Shown in pieces: positions 51,590 through 64,000 of a DNA stretch of 64,000 nt (position 1 is its first letter; each line of letters starts with the position of its first letter). The DNA is taken from contig CM034128.1 of the NCBI GenBank assembly GCA_019914995.1, positions 5,582,501-5,646,500 on the forward strand, written 5' to 3'. Origin of the DNA: Acanthochlamys bracteata. Lineage: Eukaryota; Streptophyta; Magnoliopsida; Pandanales; Velloziaceae. The notes under the pieces are model-generated. The model was not told where the DNA came from. It searched no databases and was given only the letters and a program-made list of their open reading frames with translations. A program made the position numbers and the translations under genes.

Positions 51590-52799
51590 TTCTTAATTAT
51601 ACATTTATGATCTCGTTTACATGCCGTCACTTCCGGGTCTTTCTACTCTGCTAAATCATATATGTTATTTTTATTGTGCTATTTATGGAATCAAACAGGC
51701 TCCTAAAGTTTGCTTTGAGTGTTTTCACGTAGCTATTATAAAGGTAGGTTTCCAGCAGAGTTCTCAGGATGACTTTTTATTTATGCGGCCATCACTTTAA
51801 GGGATGATACTCCTGTTATTGTATATAGATGACATGATTTTGATAGGAGATGATAATACGGATATTGCAGCGACTCAGAATCACTTTCATCAACAGTTTC
51901 AAATGAAAGATCTTGATTATTTACGTTATTTTCTTATACTGGAGATTGTGCAAAGTATTAAGAAAATTCTTATTTCTCAGCATAAATATACTTCCGACAT
52001 TATCATATTCAAGCTTATCTAATAGTTGGACAGTTGATACCCCATTAAAGCTTCATGTAAAGCTTCGTCCTACAAATGGTGAATCTTTCACAGATCCTAC
52101 TCAGTATAAACGGCTAACCGGTCAGCTTGTCCACTTATGTATGATTCGATCAGACATTTCTCAACGTAGTAAGTATTGTTAGTCAACTTATTGCTACACC
52201 ATAGTGTTTTGCTCAGGATTATCGGATATCTTCAACGCACTATTACTCGCTCGCTTTTTGTGTCTTCTATATCCATTTTCGAGCTTTGAATTTTTACAGA
52301 TATAGATTGAGCTAGTGATCCGACTACTAGACGGTCTACTACATATTTTTGCTTATTTTTTGGTGATTCGTTGATTTCGTGGCGAAGTAAGAGACAGGAA
52401 GTCGTTTTATGTTTTTCTACAAAAACTGAATATAGAGTTATGGTTGCTACCATAGACCTTCGCATCTTTGAGCAGAGACTGTTTTCATAATGAAGATTAT
52501 TCAAATACGGAGATTACTTACTAATATGGGAGTTATATTTACAAGATTTACTTTTCTTTATTATGACAATCGTAGTGTTACTCATATTACAAGTAATCTA
52601 GTTTTTCATTAACGAAAGAAACGTATTGAAATTAGCTGCCACTTCGTTTGTAAGCATTTTTTTATAATACTATTTTTTACCACATGTGACTTCTATTAAT
52701 TTGCTGCAAACTTCTTTACAAGGTCACATTCTACACCGAGCTTACAAACATTATTAGATAAACTCATACTATTTGATCTATCATGAGTTTGTGTGAGAA

Positions 52800-52918: not shown

Positions 52919-55149
52919 CTAAGGGAATTATTCTAGTTGATTTCCTGGAATAGTGCTCATTATCCTTAGATTTACCACATGACTTAATATATGAGTAAAG
53001 AGAAGGTTGAGTTGTTGTTTGCTTCTTTTGATTTCTTTCATTGTTGGAGTTGACTTCTATGATGATTTAATTCATGCAGCCAAGACATGTTGTCCTACGG
53101 GCCAATAAAGAAATATCCACTATACAAAGGGCCAATGGAAAGCAACGAAGTAGTTATATCTGTAGAGACTTCTACACAGAGTGGACTAGCTGTCTTACTC
53201 AACTAGAGTTTCTATGAGGAAGAAGAATCAAACAGTCGAAGTTCCTAAAGGGATTGGTGATACTGTTGTTGCTGATGTAGGTTCCATTTTGTAACTATGT
53301 TTATCTGCTGTATATTTTCAATACAACAAACAGGGAGGGGATCATAAGTTAAGAAGCAAGAGTCTAGGAAGCTTCCTGATAGGCAGCTGGCTGCTCAAGA
53401 CAAGCGTCTGTCTGGCCATACGGTCTCACTCTCGAAGGCTCTCAAACGCATGTAATGAGGACTTATTTTTAAAGGATCTTAAACCTGTTTTGCTCATCAC
53501 ATCGTAAAAGGTATTTAATTTGCTCTTTTATCTGTGACTTCTTGCAGCAATACTGGGGGGAGGAGATTGAAAGGCATGGGGGAAAGTTAATGGCAGTGTT
53601 CTTGGTAACTTATTTTTAGTTCATTAGTATCCTCAATTCAAGTTAGACTTTCTTGAGTTGACTTTCAGTACATCTTTCTTTGCAGGTGTGAACTGCTTGG
53701 TTGTCTCTCCCACTGAACGTGAGAGAGGAGGTTATCGGAAGTACTGGAAGCAATGTATGTACTCTCTTTGTTATGCACAAATTTATTATAGATGTTATAG
53801 TTATAACTTTCAATATTTCTTTGTAATATAGGGAAAGGAACATTCCGGTTGTTAGCGAAAATTAGCTTCTAGAAAGTATTGAGAAAAAGCAATCTCAGCC
53901 TCTTGATGCTTATGATGTGGTGTCTGACCTGGCACCTGATGGGAGGGGAGTTCCATGGTCCAAAATGGACCTAGCAAGGAAGCTGTTGAATCCCTGGCAG
54001 CTGAGGTAGTCTGTCTGGTTTCTGAATGGCATTCTTTTATGTTTCTGTGCAAACTATTCCTATTTTTTAATTAGAGCATTTTAACCAGGTCAAGCTCTAT
54101 GGTAAGAGAGCAGTTTCAAAGATTTTTAAGTTTGCTGAAGAGGGTGGCCGCATCTTTGAGAAGGATGGATCATTTATAACTGTGTTTTCTTGCTCTATGA
54201 TTTGACCAGAAGATTGAATGAGTATAGCACCATTATCTATGGAAGAAACTAGTATGAAGCTATTAAGTTCTGGAAAGAGGATTAATTGCTCTCTTTTGTG
54301 TTGTAGATATTACATTATACTGCTGATAAATGGTACCTGAGAATGTTATGCATCTTTATTAGAAGAGGAGGCAAGTTGGAGCTAATCCTGGGACAGATGA
54401 GAGAGTCAAGGAGTGGTCAAGTGTTGAGTATGCAATAAAGGAGTTTGTTCGGCTCTTTGAGGAGGTCACTGGAAATGAATTTGAGCTACGGGAAAGGGAG
54501 AAGAAGTTCAAGAATAAGCCTTTGAAGTTCTTCCCAATTGACATGGTATAAGTATATCTCTTTTGCTCAACCTAACTTGCCTGATAACATGTGCTTGCTT
54601 GTTAAATGATGTTGTTACTCGTGTTTTGAGTAGGACGCTGGCATTGATGCAAGTTATGGAGGCCTTGGTCTTTGTCAGTTACCAGCAACAGCTGCTCACA
54701 GCAAGCTAGACCCAATGGTTGCGAACTTCGTGAAAGTACTATGCATCCAAGGGATCTTCAAGTATGCTAGAGACTTGTTCCTCTTACCCGTAAACTGTAG
54801 ATATATTTCGTTACTTTATATACAGATAATAAGTGTTGTTTCATGTTATCTAGAAGTCGCTTATTGAGATTTATATTTCGAGTATGCTCTTATGGAAATG
54901 GGAATGGGCATGACCTGCCAATAGGAATGCTCACTAATCTCTACATGAAAAGATGCAAGAGTGCTGCATAGTTCAACCTCCATTACTTGCAGAAATTCCT
55001 TAATGTGGTTTGACCGTTTCCCTTTTGTTCTTTAGGGCGTATTTCAATTAACTGAAACTTCAGTTTCTCCCGCTTGATTGGAGTTTTGGTGAGTTCACGC
55101 GTTTCAATTACAAATGGATCCGAGAACTGTATTTCCTTATTACTGTGTT

Positions 55150-55740
55150 GAGTTCTCCGTCGAACTCAATTCCAGCGTTCATTTTATCTCCTTCATCACT
55201 CTATTGATAATCTTCTTCTCTTCTCAACCTATCCGACATCTTAAAGCACTCTCTCACCTCTGGCACTCCGATCGTTTTCTCAGTTGACATGTTCTTTCCC
55301 TCCACCGCTGCTGGAGAAGCGTCTCTCCAACTCCTCCACCATGCCGCCACCGATCATTTCATCTACACGTCTGTCGAGATATTCTTCTTGAAGTTTGGGT
55401 TCCACGTCTATCTAGAGAAAGCAACAGTGGAACGGTTGACAGGTAAGAGCAGTGCCTGAATGAACGAGTTGGAATAGCCAGCAAGAATCGGTTGTAGTAA
55501 GAGAGGAAAATTTGGAAGGGAAGAGTTCAAGGAGGGAAGGATCGAGGGCGTCGAGGAGGTGGTGGGGAATGTTGCGGCGGTCTGAGAAGGGAACCTTCTT
55601 GGTGGTGATGTCAAGGCCAACATAGACTTGGATCTTGTTGGAGTTGATGATATTACCGGAGAATAGTTCGGGAGGATCGATGGACAGCTTCATCTTCCCT
55701 GTTCATGTTACTCCCAGGATTACAACCAACCGTTCCCTCT
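55150..55740 (-). pseudogene. IPT: Adenylate isopentenyltransferase (cytokinin synthesis) pseudogene
   Basis: The minus strand reads RLVVILGVT, stop, TGKMKLSID at the ATP-binding P-loop. A GGA-to-TGA change (plus-strand 55703-55705) replaces the first Gly of GxTGTGK. It goes on through SGNIINSNKIQVYVGLDITT and RRNIPHHLLDALDP, both diagnostic of plant IPT proteins. A piece with GYSNSFIQALL in another frame follows, then YLDRRVDEMIGGGMVEELERRF, IGVPE and a C-terminal NRVMKEIK with a stop. At least two frame changes and several stops show it is dead. Plant adenylate IPT genes are normally intronless, so lack of introns does not tell a DNA capture from a retrocopy. IPT transfers an isopentenyl group to ATP/ADP in the first step of cytokinin synthesis. 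A CAA-rich stretch precedes the P-loop. Confidence 0.88.
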
Positions 55741-55754
55741 CTGATTCTTCTCTT

Positions 55755-55800
55755 TCTTGTTGTTATTGTTGTTGATGATGATGTTGTTGTTGTTGTTTAA
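55755..55800 (+). repeat. TTG/TGA trinucleotide repeat
   Basis: Runs of TTGTTGTTG and GATGATGATG next to the IPT pseudogene. On the minus strand they read as a Gln/His-rich stretch just before the IPT P-loop. Confidence 0.85.
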
Positions 55801-58800
55801 CAATAATTTTTCCGAGTGTTCTTGTTATTCTCTGATGATGATGGCAATAGTGTAAATGATAATAGTATCAGTTCCAATGGTGGTGTTTCAGATCAGCAGT
55901 GGCAGTGGAAGCCATGAGAGCGCCGAAGACGGAGAAGGCAGGTAACCGACAATAGAAGATTTTCAAGAAACTTTAAGAAGAACAGAAAGTGGAGAGGATC
56001 AATTGCATGCCCTTATTAATTAAATTAATCAAAACAAAGCAGAGCTTTGAAAGATTTTTGTGGTTTGATTTATTAATGAAAAGCATGTATAAATAAGAAT
56101 ATACATTATTTTTTAGAGGAGGAGAGAAGCAAATGAAGAAATCAATCAACAAGAAGGGGGACGCACGGGAGCTCCCTCTGCAGCAGCTACAGAAGCAACA
56201 TTGCAGCAGCCGTCATCTATGGCATATAGTCTTGAGTTGAAGAACTGGAAGTAGATTGCAGAAATTTTTCACTCAGATAGGTTTTTGTTTATATAGCTTT
56301 GTTTGAGTTTCAAATTTGATGTTAGAGTTTGGCACTGGCTAAGCTGTTAATACTACTCTTTCTCTTTAATGAGCATGCTATTTGAACTTGTTCCTAGTTG
56401 TATGCTTGACTTGTTGATGTTGAAGTACTTGTCTCTTCATCTTCTTTAGTCCATACCATTAGCTAATTATGCTGTACTCGTGATTAAACTGATCAAGCTG
56501 CGTCAATTGTGCATAATGATGGAGGTGACCTTTTGATCACATACCTTTGGTTGTCTATAAAGTGGAATTATTATCTAACTTCTTTTGTATATCACCAAAC
56601 TGTTGGACCGTTGGTGGTATGTTGAAAGTTTTGAGTTGTTTTGATGTTAGAAGTTATTTCTGGGTTCATCCTGCATGTATGATCCTATATATAGTTGATT
56701 TTCTTCAACATTGAATTTGTGATTCTTGCTAGTCAATTAATTGCTCTCATTATTGTTTCATAAGTTATTTTAGTGTATAGTATAAAAAATATAATATAAT
56801 TATGGTATGTAATATTATCATATCAATTATAATATCAGTGTAGTATAAATATGATATAATATGTCAAATTGTTATGTTGATTGTGACCTTAGTGTAATAT
56901 AAATGTATTTTACTTTGTTGCATGGACTATTACATGATATTGTAATATAAATTCGATATATTTTGTGACATTTAGTATTATAATACTAATTTTTATATTT
57001 TGTTATATTGTATTATAAGTGTTACATATAAATTTATAATTTATGTTATTATTATTAAAAGATTATATTTTTTATATGATAAGTTTATTATACAATATAT
57101 AAGTACTTTGTTAATTGAATAGGTTATACAATTATTTAAAATTTATATATAGAGTATGATTGAATTTTATCTAAAAAGAAATTAGCAAGATATATTATTT
57201 TTAATTTTTTTATATGTAAAACATTACATATCACTTTCAACTTAATTTAATACTTATTTCCAAATGCAATTAAAACAAAAAAACTAAAATCCACTTTCAC
57301 TTCACTTTTAAATATAATTGAAAACACAAAATCTGAATTCCACTTTTAACCTACTTCAAAAATCAATTGAAACACAAAAGCTAAACTCCACTTTCAACAC
57401 ATTTTTCAAGAAACTTCATTTTCTATTTTTCACTTTCACAAAACTCAGTTACAGACCTTTGAAACATGCCCTTAGGTGAAGAGATACTTCTGGAGTTCAG
57501 AGAGAAGTTGAAGCCTCTACCCAAGTGGGACGTCGAGGCCAAATCTTCTTGACTTGATTTCAGCAATAAGTGGTTCAGCATGATGCATTCTACTGGACCT
57601 TTCACTTTCAGAGATGTTAAACAACGTGCAGATCATGTATGTCAGCGTGCTTAGGAGATAAAATGTATTGCTATTTCACTATCTTTACTTAAATTTTCTC
57701 ACCATTGCTTGTTTTAAGGTTGTCAAAATCGAGATTTTAGGTAGGTCGTTTGATTAGAATCGTAAAATCAAAATTTTAAAATAAGATCGTAAAATTTTAT
57801 ATATAAAGATAAATTTTATAAATAATTTTTTAATACTATTAAGAATCTTTTATAAACAACTTTCTAAATTTTTTTTTAAAAAAAAGTTAGTACATTATAA
57901 CAAAATTTTAAAATTTTTTTAAATTTATAAAATAATCACTCTATATTTTATAAAAAATTATTCAAAATTATACTTTTTCAAAAAATCTTTTTAAATTTTA
58001 TAAAAGACTTCCTAAAATTTTTTTAAAAAACTCTCTCAAATTTAGTTAATTACAAAATCTTCTTCAAAAATAAAATCGTATAAAATCATAAAAAGATCGG
58101 AATCTTATCAATTTTAAGTTTAAGTCGGAATCCGGATAGATTTTTTTACTCAAAAAAGATTTTACTTGAAATCGGGATCATTGGTAAAGTAAAATCATAA
58201 TATCGTAAGATTTTAAAATTTAAATCGGAATTTTGAATATCTTGATTAGTATATTTAAAATTGCAGATAGCTGCTCCTTTGGAGGGTCTTAGAAACATAC
58301 CAGTTGCATCACATCTCGTAGGGGACATGACTGGCTCTACTATTGATGGTCCGTTGTCCAACCGCTGGAATAAACTTGGCCGCACAACCACACCTGTGGA
58401 CAAAGAGTCAGAGGAATATAAAATGATCCAGAAGTACCTTAGAAGACGAAATATGAGCCTGTTAAGCTTGGTGATGTGATATGTTCTTGACGTACCTTTT
58501 ATAGTTGGTTTGCTAGTCAAGTTTATATTGGATGATTGCTGACTGTATTTTGTTTATATCTGAGCTATGGAGTTACTTTGGCAAATGTCTTTCTGTAGAA
58601 TCTAGTGCTAGCCCCTCCTATGAAGAGTTGAAGAAGCTGTTGAACAAAGTTTTTCTGTATGTCGACGGCCTAGTTATTTAGTATGAAGTAATTGAAGAAA
58701 CTTCAAGCCTAAAGTTTTTTGATTTTCTTGCAGGCACGACGATCTCAAACTTTCTAAAACATCTTAGAAAGGCTTGCTGCCATTCATATGCGAGCTACCA

Positions 58801-62366: not shown

Positions 62367-62453
62367 AATTTAGCTAATCATAAGATTTAGTCACAAAATC
62401 TTCAAAGCATCTCAAGCAACTTCAGTAGCCAAAATCTTATGATTAGCTAAATT
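62367..62453. repeat. 22-bp perfect inverted repeat at the end of the BIR pseudogene
   Basis: AATTTAGCTAATCATAAGAT begins the left arm (62367-62388). The right arm (62432-62453) is its exact inverse over 22 bp, with a 43-bp loop. The right arm starts exactly where LRR homology of the BIR-like gene stops. It could be a hairpin, a small element end or a rearrangement point. Confidence 0.8.
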
Positions 62454-62976
62454 TAGCAAGAGATTGTGGTATATCGCCAGATAACAAATTTTCATTCAAG
62501 TAAAGAGTGTTCAGATACTTACAGCTTGATAGTTCTGGTGGAATCGGGCCAGATAAACCATTGTTAGATAGATCAAGGTTAACCAAATACGGCAACCAAT
62601 TGCAAAGCTACTAAGGGATTTGTCCAGAGATTGAGTTAGAAGATAAAACAAGAGTCGTCGCAATTTTACAAAACTGGAGAGCAGAAGGAACAGAGCCAGT
62701 GAGAAACATAGAAGGCAGAGAAATAGAAAGCACACGATTCTCTATTGTATTCCAACACGAAACGCTTCTGAAGTTGCAGACGAATCCAGCAGAGCTCGAG
62801 TTACCAAAGTTCCAATTCAGACGACCGTCAGGGTCGCGTAGAGAATCTTTAATTCCACGTAAGCACCTGACGCCATCTTCTTCGGCAGCGTTGGCTAGTG
62901 CCGCCGCCGTCAATAGAAGAAGCAGCAACATCTCCGCCGCTGCTGATGCGACGGAGGGAAAGGATCGAAAATACAT
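62454..62976 (-). pseudogene. Truncated BIR-type LRR receptor kinase gene, no kinase domain
   Basis: The minus strand starts at 62976 (MYFRSFPSV) or, more likely, 62931 (MLLLLLLTAAALANAAEE), which gives a clean signal peptide. It goes on with the LRR N-terminal domain (EDGVRCLRGIKDSLRDPDGR, then WNFGNSSSAGFVC) and leucine-rich repeats, like the BAK1-interacting receptor (BIR) group, At5g48380 type. After SISGQIP two TAG codons stand side by side (62608-62613) where relatives have Ser-Gln. The same frame then resumes with LCNWLPYLVNLDLSNNGLSG, PIPPELSS and LSGDIPQSLAKF before homology ends at the inverted repeat. The remaining LRRs, transmembrane helix and kinase domain are absent. Intact BIR proteins sit in the plasma membrane and restrain BAK1. 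This copy cannot do so. Confidence 0.82.
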
Positions 62977-64000
62977 TCTAGCGCCGCCGCTGCTTCGTTC
63001 ACTTCGTTGGTTGAATGAGAGAGGGAGAGAGAATTGATTGTGGAGATTTGAGGGAAAGCTGGAGCAGGCAAAAAACAAAGGAAGAAGGATTGATAGGATC
63101 GGCGCCGGAAGGGAGAATATCGCTTCCGGAGAAGGAGTGAAATCGCGAGAGCGGAGCGAACGGGTGTTAGCAGCGAAAAAATGAGAGAAATGTGAAGAAA
63201 TGAATTCGGTTGGGAATATATATCTGTTTGTAATTTGTGCTAAGTTATTTGGACAAAATGAACATTTCAGAGACCCAGCGAGAAAAGCCCTGCGCGACTT
63301 TACTTGAAAAGTTTCGATTCGATGTTTTTTATTTTCTACTATTCAAAGCTGGGGCCAATAGAAAGCTTGCTACGGTCTAGTCTAGTCCGGACGAACTTGA
63401 AAAGTGCGATGGGCTTACAGCGGCTAAAAGCAGACGTATCCAAACGTTTATTTTACTGTTTTGTACTTTTTTGAGCTTAAAGTTTAAAAAAAGCACAGCC
63501 AAATAGTACATTGGATATAGCTCAAACGACTTCGTAGCCCATATAAGATTGACTAATTTTTTATTTGCGCGAGCGATTAAATATACAATTTTCTACAGGG
63601 AAAATTTAAACAAATTTAGGATAAAATATTAAAAAAATTCAAACGAGATTTCATGGTTAGTAATGCTTTGGACGACTAATAACTTTACCAATACAGTTTC
63701 CCCCAAATATGAAAAAAGAAATCCAACCAAAAAGAATATGAATCACATTTAATAAGTAAATTAAAATATTGATTTTTATTCTCTTCTTTCTCTTTTGTCT
63801 ATTCTATGGCTCGTCTTAAAACCCTCTTTATCTCATCCGTTCAGTGACTGATTCACCGTTATAGTCACTATTTAAAGTTGTTTTCTTTTTTGCCATCAGT
63901 ATTAGAGATTAAAGATGTCCTACGATGTTTTTTCAATTGAAAGCAACCACAAAAAATCAATGTGTGCTATAAGTCGGAGAGTAGTACACTTCATTCGAAG
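62977..64000. other. Upstream of the BIR-like pseudogene, no gene seen
   Basis: Probably contains the old promoter and 5' UTR of the BIR-like copy (62977-63240, with GAGAGAGGGAGAGAG runs). GACGTATCCAAACG at 63434 and GCACAGCCAAATAG at 63494 resemble DNA-element ends but are unpaired. The last 450 bp show no gene that I recognise. Confidence 0.35.

Follow-up and report, generated by a model that had tools for sequence, protein, structure and literature searches.

An IPT-carrying element in a PARP3-like gene

We analyzed a 64,000-nucleotide stretch of Acanthochlamys bracteata DNA (the window; contig CM034128.1, positions 5,582,501 to 5,646,500), in which the 2,437-bp element at positions 55035-57471 is very probably (about 0.9) a non-autonomous PIF/Harbinger-type element, or Pack-PIF, with a piece of a cytokinin-synthesis (IPT) gene that was broken before amplification and with copies at TWA sites. 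As read from the sequence, the element is delimited by 13-bp terminal inverted repeats (TIRs) and a TTA duplication (Table 1). An earlier sequence-only reading had proposed this structure, and it holds: TTA stands on both sides, and the exact TIR pair with its identical 3-bp flanks occurs only once in the window. A total of 200 mononucleotide shuffles of the window gave one forward TIR, no reverse TIR and no pair. Across the searched genome (195.5 Mb, 557 contigs, here numbered C1, C2 and so on), the 13-bp pattern GGGCRTRTTTCAA has 935 exact matches, compared with 9 for the reversed control. Matching 3-bp flanks are found in 12 of 13 distinct TIR end pairs, counting the window, among the loci examined, which are a non-random sample; the matching flanks are TTA or TAA in eight cases, TCA in two, TTT in one and ATA in one, and the mismatch is L066. 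The evidence supports a PIF/Harbinger-type element that encloses an IPT fragment, occurs at other TTA/TAA sites and has an empty paralogous site.

The insertion lies in a gene that we take to be PARP3-like, its sole Pfam match being a weak one to WGR (0.0021, below the cut-off). A paralogue on C5 (L081) lacks the element and represents the empty site: the alignment is continuous, with C5 1-769 matching window 54260-55036 (76%) and C5 765-1000 matching 57472-57708 (79%). The intron's 3' splice acceptor includes the target TTA (..TTCTTTAG then GTGAAG). The host gene is degenerate in the window, because there is an in-frame stop where the C5 copy stays open and the later exons shift frame. Another ~546 bp (window 57709-58254) has no counterpart in the C5 paralogue: either the PARP3-like gene received a second insertion here, or C5 lost the stretch.

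Table 1. Features of the element in the window and IPT-bearing copies at other loci
Feature	Location	Strand	Remarks
Target-site duplication TTA (left)	55032-55034	.	Within 3' splice acceptor of PARP3-like intron; C5 empty site is ..tcattag/gtgaagag
5' TIR, GGGCGTATTTCAA	55035-55047	+	Sequence; genome-wide pattern count; shuffles
Family 5' arm	55035-55180	+	Shared with IPT-free element L064
Captured IPT coding part	55183-55951	-	C13 gene L043 1988 down to 1207; 35-bp deletion and stops
Captured 5' flank of C13 IPT gene	55984-56218	-	L043 966 down to 722
Second captured piece	56235-56666	+	Matches C16 region (L076) upstream of CFA20-domain exon
Family 3' arm	56767-57471	+	AT-rich; present in many IPT-free elements
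3' TIR (TTGAAACATGCCC on +)	57459-57471	-	Sequence; genome-wide pattern count; shuffles
Target-site duplication TTA (right)	57472-57474	.	Sequence
L054	C4		Full copy, 88% identity; own TTA/TTA; 5' TIR with 3 mismatches
L059 (same place as L017)	C2		Complete, 2,218 bp; TTA pair; 1 mismatch per TIR
IPT+EXO70 chimera	C2, 10.64 Mb		Exact TIRs; TAA pair
IPT+EXO70 chimera	C1, 12.85 Mb		Good 5' TIR; eroded 3' TIR
L057 and L058	C6		Recognizable 5' TIR alone in each
L055	C12		IPT without TIR
L056	C6		IPT without TIR

The captured IPT piece and its donor

The open reading frame (ORF) at 55412-55702(-) matches the Pfam family IPPT at 1.6e-6 and a solved adenylate isopentenyltransferase structure at 1.2e-15, which agrees with the earlier claim of an IPT pseudogene fragment within the TIRs. 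Element positions 149-1184 match, in antisense, an IPT gene on C13 (L043 722-1991; coding sequence 1123-2265). This donor gene is intact and encodes 380 aa, and the C14 IPT paralogue is more distant from the element. The captured piece amounts to 1.27 kb, comprising ~76% of the coding sequence and ~400 bp of the 5' flank; the start codon has since been lost from the window copy.

The search for further copies scored 40 of 1124 candidates, so that the count is a lower bound. At least nine IPT-bearing copies exist: seven long ones, including the window, and two chimeras with EXO70. Four of the nine are complete TIR-IPT-TIR units with a matching TTA or TAA duplication (window, C4 and two on C2); of the other five, one has an eroded 3' TIR (C1) and four are partial. 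The sequence-only reading had suggested looking for such units at other TTA sites, and L054, L059 and the C2 chimera provide them, with TTA, TTA and TAA, respectively. A further IPT-like stretch with stops is found at C3:11001149-11001423, on the contig that carries the window and ~5.4 Mb away from it.

The IPT breakpoint (L043 1988-1991) is identical in all nine copies. In addition, all seven long copies have in common two deletions, of 35 and 2 bp, and a stop at codon 56, and none of them has an intact frame: all are frameshifted and contain stops, and the last quarter of the coding sequence is missing. The two chimeras retain ~220 bp of IPT, which covers neither the 35-bp site nor codon 56. 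Since the seven long copies share both deletions and the stop, the sequences indicate a single IPT capture, already frameshifted before the element multiplied. The suggestion that a transposon had spread a hormone-biosynthesis gene does not survive this comparison; judging from the shared scars, what the element spread is not a working hormone gene. The synonymous divergence (Ks) between C13 and the seven long copies is 0.16-0.28, compared with 0.74 between C13 and C14, and the capture is therefore later than the C13/C14 duplication.

The remaining cargo and the transposase

Element positions 1201-1632 match a C16 region (L076) that precedes a CFA20-domain exon. This piece, which is probably non-coding, is kept at least partly in all seven long copies. 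The last 705 bp of the element constitute the family 3' arm, which also occurs in many IPT-free elements. Pfam scanning of 13 of the 21 element ORFs (at least 40 aa, wholly inside the element) detected no transposase, as the sequence-only reading had stated, and IPPT in two. Mobilization of PIF/Harbinger elements depends on a DDE_Tnp_4 transposase that shares their TIRs. An autonomous partner was sought via this family (PF13359): the genome gave at least 151 matches, with 150 of 311 candidates scored, and no link to the TIRs of the element emerged, the nine matches listed on C1 being those compared with TIR positions.

Other captures by the same TIR family

The same family also captured another host gene. 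Elements on C7 and C20 match a single-exon EXO70 gene located on C19, which encodes 668 aa. The captured span begins 85 bp before the start codon and ends ~515 bp beyond the stop codon; in the two copies, ~85 bp close to the start and ~309 bp spanning the end of the coding sequence are missing. The C20 element has both ends and a TTA pair, with two mismatches in the 5' TIR. The C7 element also has two mismatches in the 5' TIR, and its 3' end is not recognized. In the chimeras on C1 and C2, an IPT-type 5' end is followed by EXO70 and then by the family 3' end; the two share 95.9% identity over 3,094 bp. The EXO70 capture is younger than the IPT capture, because its Ks to C19 is only 0.05-0.06. 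Stops or frameshifts occur in all four EXO70 copies analyzed, and further fragments lie on C6 and C7. At C1:12.84 Mb (L068 and L061), a 432-codon open frame runs from antisense IPT into EXO70.

A 1.9-kb subfamily, with seven long matches (94-100%, query included), holds fragments of a C5 locus that has an open frame of 296 codons. The exon-like appearance of these pieces raised the possibility of a retro-processed capture, which we rejected as none of the four gaps starts with GT; because, in addition, the first gap lies inside the continuous open frame, we read the gaps as internal deletions. The 801-bp middle of the IPT-free element L064 matches four other places, from which no donor could be named, and no Pfam family scores above the cut-off in the ORFs of L063 and L064.

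Proposed mechanism and alternative explanations

The comparisons show that an ancestral element held the 1.27-kb C13 IPT piece beside the piece matching the C16 CFA20-gene region. The IPT piece was already frameshifted when the element multiplied; its copies stand at different sites between duplicated TWA triplets, and one lies in the 3' splice acceptor of the PARP3-like gene. Sister elements with the same ends hold the span enclosing the whole EXO70 coding sequence from C19, and in two elements, nearly identical at two sites, EXO70 is attached to the IPT-type 5' end. The TIRs are presumably acted on by a PIF transposase that is encoded elsewhere. The captures themselves may have arisen by faulty repair inside the element, through template switching or end joining, because the ends are kept, the middles are replaced, and the junctions, read by eye, show short shared bases or filler.

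Several observations weigh against this interpretation. First, no exact TIR occurs within 19 kb of any of the nine PF13359 matches listed for C1. Second, in the tree C13, C14 and the elements fall into a single unresolved group, separate from C11 and C8, and the tree by itself does not recover the element copies as one clade; it is the common scars and breakpoint that argue for a single origin. Third, L057 and L058 (C6:7906973-7917183) form an inverted repeat with 3,084-bp arms, 96.4% identical, around a 4.06-kb spacer; since the duplication extends beyond the TIR into flanking DNA, they represent one insertion that was duplicated and not two transpositions. Fourth, IPT outside the TIRs, which the sequence-only reading had regarded as evidence against capture, does occur in two copies: L055 and L056 have no family TIRs, and the 5' region of a leucine-rich repeat (LRR)-type gene, also present at window 62985-63481, stands in place of the 5' arm. 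However, both retain ~10 bp of the family 5' arm beside IPT, and on this short remnant we read them as likely derivatives of TIR elements. Finally, the donor-locus DNA examined on C13 (5.2 kb), C19 (4.0 kb), C16 (3.0 kb) and C5 (1.9 kb) contains no TIR with one mismatch or fewer, and direct support for the published model of capture is likewise absent there.

In that model, which Gisby and Catoni (2022, PMC8903248) put forward for Pack-TYPE elements, Pack-PIFs among them, two neighboring family insertions around a donor gene fuse, without faulty gap repair. Both arms of our element are indeed family arms. Nevertheless, we consider this route doubtful, though of some weight, since the unlinked C13 and C16 pieces stand side by side and the scan of the donor loci counts weakly against it. 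With two mismatches allowed, there are two TIR matches at the C13 locus and one at C5, which we take as chance, the window background being ~0.4 per 5.2 kb.

Short TIRs of the GGG or GGC type are typical of PIF/Harbinger elements, Mutator-like elements (MULEs) have long TIRs and a 9-bp duplication, and CACTA elements are also known for gene capture. A Mutator, CACTA or Helitron origin is quite improbable: according to PMC8903248, capture is more familiar from MULEs and Helitrons, but the duplications here are 3 bp and mostly TWA and the TIRs are short and begin with GGGC, with no CACTA ends, long TIR or 9-bp duplication. It is even harder to sustain that capture is only apparent and that a pair of miniature inverted-repeat transposable elements (MITEs), or two nested elements, flanks an ordinary IPT pseudogene. 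MITE-size pairs of the same TIR do exist (245-295 bp, e.g. 278 bp); however, the same TIR-IPT-TIR junctions recur elsewhere, with a separate TTA or TAA pair in every case, and the entire block is absent from the C5 empty site.

Lastly, selection on IPT was examined through the ratio of nonsynonymous to synonymous divergence (Ka/Ks), with the other frames as control. The mean element-element value is 0.46 in the coding frame, compared with 0.57-0.79 in the other five, which runs counter to plain decay. We did not accept this value as constraint. Transitions are in excess between the window and L054 (92:25, compared with 193:183 between C13 and C14), as would fit decay of methylated DNA. This excess, perhaps together with a loss of CpG at third codon positions, could reduce Ka/Ks. 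That some copy still yields a working cytokinin enzyme has next to no probability given the frameshifts and stop shared by all seven long copies and the missing last quarter of the coding sequence.

Neighboring features in the window

The window holds two further features. A degenerate start of an LRR receptor-like gene occupies 62400-63481(-) (LRRNT_2, E 0.00026); its 5' region has 42 matched pieces in the genome, including L055, L056 and the window, as if it had been multiplied. Fragments of a copia-type reverse transcriptase lie at 51597-52022 (RVT_2, E 1.2e-10).

Comparison with known capture elements

The sequence-only reading had treated capture by PIF/Harbinger elements as unusual, which is less so than stated: PMC8903248 reports Pack-PIFs in rice and maize and states that Arabidopsis yielded no new Pack superfamily. 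Like these Pack-PIFs, our family has non-autonomous PIF ends, a TTA/TAA duplication, pieces of host genes, sometimes from two genes, and multiple copies. As in Pack-TYPE elements, the donors lie elsewhere (C13 IPT, C16 CFA20 region and C19 EXO70) and the elements are at several sites. Thus, the element is a further example of the Pack-PIF type already described in these two cereals. The captured pieces exceed in length those of one maize example, cluster 18 (163 and 58 bp), to which alone this comparison applies. In contrast to the rice and maize elements as PMC8903248 describes them in its text, a sister capture here spans the whole EXO70 coding sequence, and separate captures have recombined. 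The element also resembles Pack-MULEs in holding gene pieces inside a TIR element and forming multi-gene chimeras; however, it has short TIRs and a 3-bp duplication instead of long TIRs and a 9-bp duplication. Tourist-like MITEs of PIF/Harbinger, in this genome the 245-295-bp pairs, share its TIRs and mostly TWA duplications, whereas the element is ~nine times longer and carries host-gene DNA. Among the titles found in the literature on IPT or EXO70 with transposons, no such capture appears.

Implications

The captured IPT copies might serve as putative small-RNA sources damping the C13 cytokinin gene, which we regard as a long shot. The repeat arms of L057 and L058 share 61 and 91 21-mers with the C13 coding sequence, and the rest of the 64,000-nucleotide window shares none; by its arrangement, this inverted repeat could be a candidate source of long double-stranded hairpin RNA. 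If true, a hormone-synthesis gene would have come under the control of transposon small RNAs through a transposon family, and the intact C13 donor gene offers a reference for testing such effects. In summary, this is a well-resolved family of PIF/Harbinger captures, with donors identified, an empty site and shared scars that point to one IPT capture; the EXO70 chimeras are later than that capture, so the events can be ordered in time. The family shows that PIF elements can carry stretches the length of an entire EXO70 gene and recombine them.

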